This document shows positions 11,498 to 44,157 of a DNA stretch of 64,000 nucleotides, piece by piece. Position 1 is the stretch's first letter. Every line of letters starts with the position of its first letter. The notes below the pieces were generated by a model, which was not told where the DNA came from, made no database searches, and was given only the letters and a program-made list of their open reading frames with translations. Made by a program: the position numbers and the translations under genes. The stretch is from Tausonia pullulans (taxonomy: Eukaryota > Basidiomycota > Tremellomycetes > Cystofilobasidiales > Mrakiaceae), in contig OX637630.1 of assembly GCA_951802195.1 (NCBI GenBank), positions 124,001 through 188,000 of the forward strand. Direction: 5' to 3'.

Positions 11498-11953
11498 GAG
11501 GACATCTCGGGTGGTTGGTGATGGCGCGCATCTCTCTCCCGGACGGTGGACTCTCTCCTTTTCCCATTTACCCCAGACCCCACGGACTTCCTCTGTCTTT
11601 TCTTTATTATATAACTGTGGCCTCTTGATGTCATTCGTGGACGCTCACCCCTCGCCCGTCTTTCTTGATTCGTGGCGAGCGCAAGGGACCTGCAATGCTG
11701 TATCGTCACGTACCCCGCCTTGTCTATGATCTCTCATTACAATTCCTCTTTTGAGGATCTGAGCGATGCTCCGCTCCAGTCATATTTTGGAGTGAGAGAC
11801 TAAAGCGAACCAAACGCAAGAATCGCACTCAGCCCCCGCAGGCATCCGAACGGCTGACCTCTTTCTCCCGCCGCAGATCTCCTGGCTCACAATTTTCCAT
11901 GGGGCTCATAGTCCCATCTTTGAAAGGTCTAGACAAGAAGTTTCGCTGTTATT

Positions 11954-12055
11954 CTCTCTTTAAGACACCCGAAGGTTTCCAGATCGAAACTGGAGCCCGC
12001 AACTAAACTGCGGGCTGGCGCAATGGTAGCGTGTCGGGCTCATACTTAGAGTGAG
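11954..12055 (+). other. Leader-trailer helix flanking permuted tRNA copy 1
   Basis: The 11-nt leader segment 11954-11964 (CTCTCTTTAAG) can pair with the trailer segment 12045-12055 (CTTAGAGTGAG): nine Watson-Crick pairs, one G.U and one U.U mismatch. The trailer strand starts at the first base after A37. On the leader side a 3-nt bulge (A, C, then A38) separates this helix from the anticodon stem, with the predicted cut after its second base. That geometry is the one used by tRNA splicing endonuclease at a 3' splice site. Pairing is seen in the sequence; cleavage is inferred. Confidence 0.75.
11967..12044 (+). tRNA. Circularly permuted initiator tRNA-Met(CAU), copy 1
   Basis: The 3' half (11967-12002: A38, anticodon 3' strand CCCGA, variable AGGTT, T arm TCCAG/ATCGAAA/CTGGA, acceptor GCCCGCA, discriminator A) lies upstream of the 5' half (12009-12044: acceptor TGCGGGC, TG, D stem GCGC/GCGT, anticodon strand TCGGG, loop CTCATA ending at A37). 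A 6-nt linker CTAAAC separates them. Read in tRNA order, all four stems pair (acceptor 7 of 7) and the product is 72 nt. Initiator hallmarks are the T loop with A54 and A60, and GGG/CCC at 29-31/39-41. The break is at 37/38, the normal eukaryotic intron site. Internal promoter elements are reversed (B box before A box). A TTTT at 12066-12069 may end pol III transcription. It cannot be read as a normal-order tRNA. Confidence 0.88.
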
Positions 12056-12069
12056 CCAAACCTCTATTT

Positions 12070-12778
12070 TGCTTGCCGTGGAGGAGTTGGCCTTCTTGAC
12101 TGCAGCTAGGATCGGAAACACTTTCTGCTGATCAAAGGGTGGCCTCTAGACATTGTCATTAGATCGCACGGCCATCGGATAGATGGTCGACGGCAAGGCA
12201 GAGAAGCGAGGAGGTCGTCGCCCATAACGATGAGAGGCGGGAGCTGTTCAAGGACTCCTGGATTGTGAGAGCTCTGCCCTTGACTCAAGGGCGAGGGCAT
12301 CGAATCCATCAATAGCGACAATGGATTGCCCAGTACGGTGAGATTTCTCGACCGTTTCAACGCTGATCTGTCAAACCTTCAGCTTCACAGCCCCGACGGT
12401 ACGTGGTGGCTCGTGTAGAGCGTAACCGGCAACGACCATGCACAAATTAATGGCTGAGCTCAGTGTAGGTCGTCAACTGCGCCTTTCGGCCATTTCAGAT
12501 GTAGATCCATCCAAAGCGACCTCTCAACAAGGCATTCCGAAAGCAGACACATCGTTTATCGACAGCTCCCGAGAGAGATTGGTTGGCAGAGAGGAGCTGG
12601 AGTCTCCAAAGGTCCATTAGTGACACGACGTCTCGCGGCCACGCGGCGATCGAGTGCCAGTCTGTTCGTCAGCACCTCGCACAGATACCACGCAGCTCAT
12701 CGATGAGGCGCACCACTTTAATAGCTGTCCCTGGTCTACAACCGACGACGTGCCGGTGAATGTCATGATACCCTGAGC
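12070..12778. other. Intergenic region, no gene recognised
   Basis: About 700 bp between the permuted tRNA and tRNA-Gly. The longest ORF (12438-12620, 60 codons) has no family resemblance, no splice context and ordinary composition; I treat it as chance. No further tRNA half was found on either strand. Confidence 0.45.
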
Positions 12779-12783: not shown

Positions 12784-12786
12784 GGA

Positions 12787-12858
12787 TGAATGTGAGGTGA
12801 ATCGAACACCTGTCTCAAGAATGGAAATCTTGAATAATAACCACTATACGACACATCC
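12787..12858 (-). tRNA. tRNA-Gly(UCC), ordinary order, no intron
   Basis: On the minus strand the 72-nt sequence folds as a normal cloverleaf: acceptor GGATGTG with CACATTC (one G.U), TC, D arm GTATAGTGGTTATTAT, anticodon stem CAAGA/TCTTG, loop TTTCCAT with anticodon UCC at 34-36, variable AGAC, T arm AGGTG/TTCGATT/CACCT and discriminator A. The D arm is typical of fungal glycine tRNAs. It serves as an internal control: an ordinary pol III gene with T-loop TTCGATT about 0.8 kb from the permuted gene. Confidence 0.9.
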
Positions 12859-12940
12859 ATGTAACATTTGATACTACATATACACAAGCCAATGCACAAT
12901 ATGTCAAAAATAAACGTCTTACCAAACATGACTTAAATAC

Positions 12941-28493: not shown

Positions 28494-28612
28494 TGATTTT
28501 GATCGAAGCAATGATTCGAAAATAACCCTCGTCGAGACTTGAACAAACGCACTTTACGAAAATTCGCAGATTTATTGATAGGGTTCATGTACTCAACTCC
28601 CACAATCTATTC

Positions 28613-28722
28613 AAGAAGTCCGAAGGTGGCACCCGAAGGTTTCCAGATCGAAACTGGAGCCCGCAACTAACTGCGGGCTGGCGCAATGGTAGCGTGTCGG
28701 GCTCATACGTAACGGACTTCTT
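28613..28722 (+). other. Leader-trailer helix flanking permuted tRNA copy 2
   Basis: Leader AAGAAGTCCG (28613-28622) is the exact reverse complement of trailer CGGACTTCTT (28713-28722), giving ten uninterrupted pairs. Between helix and halves lie 8 nt on the leader side and 5 nt on the trailer side. These flanks share no sequence with those of copy 1, yet both copies pair. This supports a selected intron-like helix; cleavage itself is inferred. Confidence 0.8.
28631..28707 (+). tRNA. Circularly permuted initiator tRNA-Met(CAU), copy 2
   Basis: The 3' half (28631-28666) precedes the 5' half (28672-28707). Both halves are identical to copy 1; only the linker differs, CTAAC (5 nt) instead of CTAAAC. 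In tRNA order the product is the same 72-nt initiator with anticodon CAU, A54 and A60 in the T loop and three G:C pairs at the base of the anticodon loop. As in copy 1, a C precedes A38 and follows A37. The gene lies 137 bp after the GPATCH1 stop on the same strand and ends in a T6 tract. Identity of the halves against wholly different flanks argues for either purifying selection or recent homogenisation. Confidence 0.9.
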
Positions 28723-28726
28723 TTTT
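28721..28726 (+). terminator. Pol III terminator of permuted tRNA copy 2
   Basis: A T6 run overlaps the end of the trailer helix, 13 nt past A37, so a pol III transcript would contain the whole permuted precursor and its helix. Confidence 0.7.
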
Positions 28727-43816: not shown

Positions 43817-44157
43817 GGATGCATGGGACCCTTGCTTCTGGTGTCATCCTTTCCTTCCGAACGATGAAAGAGAAAAAGAGAGGAAAGAGAGAGAACCAAG
43901 ACGCGATGATAATCGTGAGGTTGTATGCAAAGAGAGGAGGTGAGAGGATAAAAGAGAGGACACAAGCAATGCGAACGATTAATGGAAGGATCAAAACACG
44001 CACAAGATCCGTAATTACACGATGAAAATGAAGGTGACAGAGATAGTGAAAACGATAGGGGGAAAAAAGAGGGGAACAAAGAAAGATAGGATATGAACAA
44101 ACACCCGAAAGAACAAGATGCGGATTCTCCCCGACTCCGAGCAGCCCTTCCACGATT

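Follow-up and report, generated by a model that had tools for sequence, protein, structure and literature searches.

Can a tRNA gene whose 3′ half lies upstream of its 5′ half be a genome's source of initiator tRNA-Met? The question is raised by a locus at 28631–28707 of the window, by which we mean the whole stretch of 64,000 nucleotides that was analysed. We put the probability at about 90% that this locus is one of 14 type II permuted genes, broken between positions 37 and 38, that are jointly the only source of cytoplasmic initiator tRNA-Met detected in the genome and are matured through splicing and a circle. The window holds two such genes, with these features:

28534 to 28544, plus strand: upstream GAAC element GAGACTTGAAC, in the version of the copy at 28631–28707, which is without a clear TATA box
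28613 to 28622, plus strand: leader arm AAGAAGTCCG, 10 bp complementary to the trailer CGGACTTCTT (by sequence and fold)
28628, plus strand: G at position −3 of the 3′ splice site, the anticodon–intron pair partner for C32
28631 to 28666, plus strand: initiator tRNA-Met 3′ half, positions 38–73 (A38 to A73), 36 nt, with an A54-U55-C56 T loop and CCA not encoded
28667 to 28671, plus strand: linker CTAAC, 5 nt, between A73 and position 1
28672 to 28707, plus strand: initiator tRNA-Met 5′ half, positions 1–37, 36 nt, anticodon CAT
28713 to 28722, plus strand: trailer arm CGGACTTCTT, the partner of the leader arm at 28613–28622 (by sequence and fold)
28721 to 28726, plus strand: T6 run, presumed RNA polymerase III terminator
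11842 to 11851, plus strand: upstream element GCATCCGAAC of the second window copy, without a clear TATA box
11967 to 12002, plus strand: 3′ half of the second window copy
12003 to 12008, plus strand: linker CTAAAC of the second window copy, 6 nt
12009 to 12044, plus strand: 5′ half of the second window copy
12067 to 12070, plus strand: T4 run, presumed terminator of the second window copy

The initial annotation had read 28631–28707 as a permuted initiator tRNA-Met gene, and had placed another locus 16.6 kb away with the same order, the same break, identical halves and unrelated flanks. Both readings are borne out: all parts lie on the plus strand, and the two window copies (L011 at 28631–28707 and L015 at 11967–12044) are 16,664 bases apart, with identical halves between unrelated flanks. 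The 5-nt linker given there describes L011 (CTAAC) but not L015, in which it is 6 nt long (CTAAAC). Put in normal order, the halves make a 72-nt initiator of eukaryotic type, with a CAT anticodon, three G-C pairs in the anticodon stem, A54-U55-C56 and no CCA; this identity was assigned by sequence and by alignment with three sequences that we take to be those of eukaryotic initiators. The acceptor pair 1:72 is U:A in all copies (window 28660–28672); in most eukaryotic initiators it is A:U. Both permuted copies were missed when ARAGORN and Rfam were run on the window, the sole report being a tRNA-Gly(TCC) gene. That gene, in normal order at 12784–12859 on the minus strand, lies around 0.7 kb from L015.

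Searching the whole genome (G000; 23,855,473 bases in 21 contigs) with the permuted unit as a DNA query returned 14 full-length permuted units and no lone half, spread over seven contigs (C1, C3, C6, C7, C9, C11 and C14). Every copy has the type II layout, with the 3′ half upstream on the same strand and a short linker between the halves; CCA is unencoded, and a T stretch is found downstream and none inside the linker, as type II genes have it. Thirteen copies have the same tRNA body; the remaining one, L020, has two changes, one on either side of a T-stem pair, which together preserve the pairing. The linkers, 5–8 nt long, read CTAAC in seven copies, CTAAAC in two, CTAAACAA in two, and CATAAC, CTTAAC and CTAAAAC in one each. 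They are more alike among copies than the flanks are, and CTAAC and CTAAAC resemble the fungal spliceosomal branch point; perhaps RNase P or tRNase Z needs the linker sequence. Near-identical flanks occur in three pairs (L009/L010, L012/L013 and L021/L022), with L014 weakly similar to L012/L013 on the upstream side only, and taking one copy from each near-identical pair leaves the 11 flank sets that we call independent. ARAGORN detected none of the 14 permuted copies in the genome, and an Rfam tRNA search was run in which 63 of 897 candidates were scored.

Position 37/38 is the canonical intron site of eukaryotic tRNAs, and in all 14 copies the break falls exactly there: the sequence is common up to A37 and again from A38, and divergent beyond. 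A misreading of normal tRNA genes in tandem, taken out of register, was ruled out, as the flanks diverge exactly at 37 and 38. Cleavage at the 3′ splice site is reported to depend on a pair between two bases, a pyrimidine located 6 nt ahead of the 5′ splice site and a purine located 3 nt ahead of the 3′ splice site, and the human enzyme is reported to require the pair and not its exact bases (PMC8479045). In every one of the 14 copies a G occupies −3, opposite C32, against an upstream G frequency of 0.22, which fits this anticodon–intron pair rule. The same genome carries a normal-order tRNA-Pro(AGG) gene with an intron at 37/38 and, by our own placement of its splice sites in one of several possible frames, an A at −3 opposite U32. 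This intron-containing gene (L008) lies around 0.7 kb from the permuted copy L016.

The splicing machinery is represented as well. Exons for the catalytic subunits of the splicing endonuclease, Sen2 and Sen34, are present in the genome, and a Trl1-type ligase is indicated by four RNA_lig_T4_1 exon matches, three of them above cut-off. Ligases of this type are reported from fungi, diatoms and plants, and not from animals (PMC4090602). The ligase gene (G000:C6:341837-342704 and 345176-345252) lies around 2.5 kb from the permuted copy L014, perhaps by coincidence.

If leader and trailer belong to one precursor opened in the anticodon loop, each leader should match its own trailer. The leader–trailer duplexes average −14.8 kcal/mol with the own trailer versus −8.5 kcal/mol with swapped trailers; the own-trailer mean is reached in none of 100,000 permutations over 12 distinct leader–trailer pairs, two of which are near duplicates. 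For 6 of 12 leaders the own trailer is the best of the 12. Relative to dinucleotide-shuffled trailers, the 11 independent flank sets have a mean z of −2.23 (range −0.27 to −4.48), and control placements farther out (n = 55) have a mean z of 0.01, with three at −2 or below. Pairing is weak in three of the 11 sets, which we count against the match: L009 (z = −0.83), L016 (−0.27) and L021 (−1.02). Leader and trailer are predicted to form, with the anticodon–intron pair, the splicing motif that belongs to the type II arrangement. Chance is excluded as the origin of the permuted order.

Computed folds of the precursors agree in part with this arrangement. The minimum-energy structures of 13 of the 14 precursors contain three of the tRNA stems (anticodon, acceptor and D) and a leader–trailer helix that spans 10 to 21 pairs. 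None of those 13 has the canonical T stem, which gives way to a slightly better-scoring GGUUUC/GAAACU hairpin (GAAACC in L020). Forcing the full cloverleaf raises the energy above the minimum by 0.5 kcal/mol for 12 copies, by 1.6 for L020 and by 2.0 for L015. The minimum-energy structure of L015 has no anticodon stem, D stem or leader–trailer helix, and a helix of 13 pairs comes back in its forced cloverleaf. The joined normal-order tRNA folded alone forms the same GGUUUC/GAAACU hairpin, which is therefore a property of the unmodified body and not of the permutation; base modification in the cell may settle the competition between T stem and hairpin. By sequence, then, the molecule is an ordinary initiator, and by computed fold it is one in part only, with the T stem displaced and L015 a miss.

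Transcription of a permuted gene poses a problem of its own, since the reversed A and B boxes are described as unsuitable for TFIIIC (PMC3978253). An external promoter would solve this problem, and the flanks hold candidates for one. Upstream, GAAC occurs at −119 to −90 in all 11 independent sets (window −125 to −86), a frequency that the best 4-mer of any kind did not attain in 200 shuffled sets (at most 9 of 11); in a fixed window of −130 to −91 it is found in 10 of 11 sets versus 1.8 expected. Eight of the 11 sets also have a TATA-like sequence at −65 to −46, where 0.14 would be expected, the exceptions being L019 and the two window copies, L011 and L015, which may be weak for want of a clear TATA box. 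Downstream, a run of at least four T is found at all 14 copies, starting 14 to 30 nt past the gene; within 40 nt such a run is present in 11 of 11 sets, versus 1.9 in shuffles and 0.9 in the flank background.

The combination of GAAC and a TATA 30–65 nt later is found in 11 of the 14 permuted copies (8 of 11 sets) versus 1 of 22 distinct normal tRNA genes, a tRNA-Ala gene (L029); 18 of these normal genes had only 94–100 upstream bases available, and some TATA was seen in seven of them and some GAAC in eight. Read in reverse complement, the fuller element becomes GTTCRTATCC and looks like a tRNA B box; our guess is that the upstream element binds TFIIIC. Two U6 genes (L077 and L078) score above the family cut-off, and both are preceded by a TATA-like sequence and followed by CTTCGTATCC, which looks like a B box and whose reverse complement is similar to the element found upstream of the permuted genes; a third U6 match (L079) stays under the cut-off. 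The fuller form GGATAYGAAC occurs 46 times genome-wide versus 25 for a reversed control, with five sites at permuted copies, one in the window at 44089 and 40 elsewhere. Of these 40, not one yielded a tRNA with ARAGORN, nor any Rfam match up to E = 0.1, and a TATA was correctly placed at one of them; the motif was therefore rejected as a marker of further genes.

Does the genome also hold an initiator gene in normal order? A whole-genome search with the joined tRNA at E ≤ 10 gave 28 matches, which are both halves of the 14 permuted copies. The initiator D-arm pattern, allowing at most one mismatch, hit 22 sites in the genome, none a normal-order initiator: the 14 exact matches are all permuted copies, and of the eight with one mismatch one is a normal tRNA-Arg(TCT) gene, and the remaining seven do not correspond to tRNA genes. 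When the pattern was the joined anticodon arm GGGCTCATAACCC, again with at most one mismatch, the search found 19 sites genome-wide with neither an exact match nor a normal-order initiator among them, namely the permuted copy L019, nine sites in a Copia element and nine without a tRNA at the site. Such pattern and DNA searches would miss a normal-order initiator diverged in both the D arm and the anticodon arm. The initial annotation had proposed that the permuted form is the cell's working initiator and had named as support that only permuted copies exist; the three genome searches uphold the latter, and we infer the former.

The permuted copies might instead be relics, or have another role, with a normal-order initiator in an unassembled or too-diverged stretch. 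The assembly may omit stretches, the genome searches covered patterns, DNA, proteins and families, and promoters or helices are weak in some copies; yet 13 of 14 bodies are identical, the T-stem change in L020 is paired, G stands at −3 in 14 of 14 copies and flanks are matched within copies, and we regard this alternative as improbable.

The nine anticodon-arm sites in the Copia element bear on the joined product itself. They belong to one repeat family (L128–L133, L136, L141 and L142, on contigs C4, C5, C7, C17 and C19). In L128, the site that was scanned, an RVT_2 reverse transcriptase frame of copia type ends ahead of a presumed LTR, and a Pol_BBD frame follows after the LTR. A putative primer-binding site, TCGGGTTATGAGCC, is present at 9 of 9 sites, 5 bases past the presumed LTR end. 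Its 14 nt of complementarity to the joined anticodon arm straddle the junction, with 8 tRNA positions ahead of 37/38 and 6 behind it. The LTR ends are themselves deduced, the end in question being placed from L142, where an inverted copy breaks off at that point and lacks TCGGGTTATGAGCC. Because the search that turned up the site had this very arm as its query, its weight lies in its position after the presumed LTR and not in the match alone. Ty5 and Drosophila copia are reported to prime from the anticodon region of the initiator tRNA (PMC5371799, PMC10886601), and fungal Copia and Helenus elements are described as priming in the same way, with primer sites that match the mature, intron-less tRNA (PMC10886601). 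The position of the Copia site across 37/38 suggests that the joined initiator tRNA probably exists in the cell, or did when the element last moved. Three of the Copia sites, all on C4, are identical over 2.2 kb, which would point to recent movement or recent duplication.

Dispersal of the permuted copies themselves by a SINE-like, tRNA-derived mobile element, such that they are not the working initiator, would account for 14 dispersed copies and for pairs with shared flanks (L009/L010, L012/L013 and L021/L022). Flank similarity above threshold is confined to those three pairs and to the upstream side of L012/L013 versus L014, however, independent copies share only the tRNA and the upstream elements, and no normal initiator was found, so we hold this origin to be very unlikely.

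In the reading that we prefer, a permuted gene that is the working initiator, RNA polymerase III would transcribe the leader, 3′ half, linker, 5′ half and trailer up to the T-run from an external, upstream promoter consisting of the GAAC element, mostly with TATA. The linker would close the acceptor stem of the precursor and leave the anticodon loop open, with leader and trailer forming an intron-like helix, a fold suggested by the computed folds and the match of leaders to their own trailers. The signals for tRNA splicing endonuclease (Sen2, Sen34) are in place, and it would cut off leader and trailer at 37/38, guided by the tRNA body and the C32–G(−3) pair. Trl1 ligase would then join 37 to 38 into a circle still holding the linker and, on algal precedent, RNase P and tRNase Z would excise the linker before CCA is added. 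The algal pathway is reported to run through a single transcript, endonuclease excision, ligation to a circle, cleavage by RNase P and tRNase Z, and CCA addition (PMC3978253).

Separate transcription of the two halves, later joined as a split tRNA, has a precedent in the archaeon N. equitans (PMC3978253), but the linker, at 5–8 nt and without a T-run, is too short for a promoter, and leader–trailer complementarity suits a single transcript opened at the anticodon loop; we give this route even less credence than spread by a mobile element. An assembly or sequencing artefact, in favour of which there is nothing beyond the caution of the initial annotation, which itself judged an artefact or a single chance rearrangement very unlikely, is scarcely credible in the face of 14 copies on seven contigs with 11 independent flank sets and six linker sequences, and would not produce a leader and trailer that match better within copies than between them.

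Going beyond the single locus, we consider it likely that in this fungus all cytoplasmic initiator genes have been replaced by the 14-copy permuted family, under a dedicated external polymerase III promoter (an inverted-B-box-like element, mostly with TATA), and that Copia primes on the joined product. The cell would then probably have to splice its initiator RNA into a circle before any protein synthesis, all translation initiation would depend on tRNA splicing and a circular precursor, and permutation would extend to a kingdom with tractable genetics. The 11 independent flank sets, which keep the pairing (weak in three) and G(−3), may serve as a natural experiment on recognition by the splicing endonuclease, and they hint at how a gene with its internal promoter boxes reversed is transcribed. 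Because ARAGORN found none of the 14 copies, genomes seemingly without an initiator merit re-examination.

The wider content of the genome and the window was also surveyed, and on balance makes the host very probably a fungus; that it is a basidiomycete is our hunch. The genome gave 11 matches to Zn_clus, a domain nearly confined to fungi, in a search whose control genomes were all prokaryotes. An RPB2 exon scored best with chains that we take to be from fission yeast (3h0g) and other yeasts, with mammalian chains behind, and for a CCT6 exon presumably mammalian chains scored above a chain that we take to be from budding yeast. The initial annotation had referred to red yeasts, a label that is unproven here, a genome search for aromatic ammonia-lyase giving zero matches. 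Within the window, GC content is 54–61%, SPT8-like matches fall below the family cut-off, and a protein search had two matches, a near-identical protein that carries no name and a distant one. On contig C21 of the genome (18,821 bases; L032), a tRNA-Arg(TCG) gene adjoins a tRNA-Ser(TGA) gene, which suggests a mitochondrial contig.

How might such a family arise? A fungal system for comparison is offered by Copia and Helenus elements such as Copia-28_PHord, in which PHord presumably denotes Puccinia hordei, the barley rust. The tRNA-iMet genes that these fungal elements use are reported to carry an intron downstream of the anticodon; they are alike with the present genes in an interruption just after the anticodon and in priming from the mature anticodon loop, and differ in that the interruption is reported as an intron (PMC10886601). 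Permuted genes have been proposed to originate by tandem duplication with loss of the outer halves (PMC3978253). An intron-containing fungal iMet gene is a plausible ancestral state, and we infer that its tandem duplication with outer-half loss would yield exactly the observed order. Given the iMet introns reported in fungi (PMC10886601), intermediate states are possible in relatives, which makes a duplication origin testable.

Permuted tRNA genes have been reported from red and green algae, nucleomorphs and one archaeon (PMC3978253, PMC4494063, preprint PMC12633428), the green alga Auxenochlorella being added by the 2025 preprint (PMC12633428). Among the matches listed from the openly licensed literature we found no earlier fungal permuted tRNA, and a literature search found no basidiomycete genome paper noting a missing initiator. 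The gapped initiator pattern gave four chance matches only, in viral_contigs (one stretch) and genome_contigs (three stretches), two of them across neighbouring bacterial-type tRNAs and two without a tRNA gene found.

The permuted tRNA-iMet of Micromonas, as tabulated in Table 1 of PMC3978253, is alike in the tRNA concerned, the 37/38 break, the 3′ half lying first and an hBH-type junction suited to the eukaryotic splicing endonuclease. It differs in belonging to green algae with one listed gene per species and linkers of 12 and 47 nt (PMC3978253), whereas here what is very probably a fungus has 14 copies with linkers of 5–8 nt, a common upstream element and no normal-order initiator found. 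Cyanidioschyzon merolae (Soma et al. 2007, as reviewed in PMC3978253) is described as sharing a downstream T stretch and a CCA that is not encoded; the TATA-like sequence upstream of its genes has a counterpart in 8 of the 11 flank sets here, and the circular RNA intermediate detected in that alga is only proposed here. Its iMet gene, by contrast, is reported to be broken at 50/51 and to have a linker of 74 nt, and 11 of the 43 tRNA genes of the alga are permuted, at several positions (PMC3978253), whereas the permutation described here is known for the initiator only, at 37/38. The tRNA-Ser of the Bigelowiella natans nucleomorph resembles the present genes in its 37/38 break and 5-nt linkers and differs in being a tRNA-Ser of a reduced algal nucleus, according to the accounts in PMC3978253 and PMC4494063. 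The kind of gene is thus already known, from the Micromonas iMet broken at 37/38 and the 5-nt linkers of nucleomorphs; what is new is the detection of no normal initiator beside it, the very probably fungal host, the 14 copies and the upstream element that they have in common.
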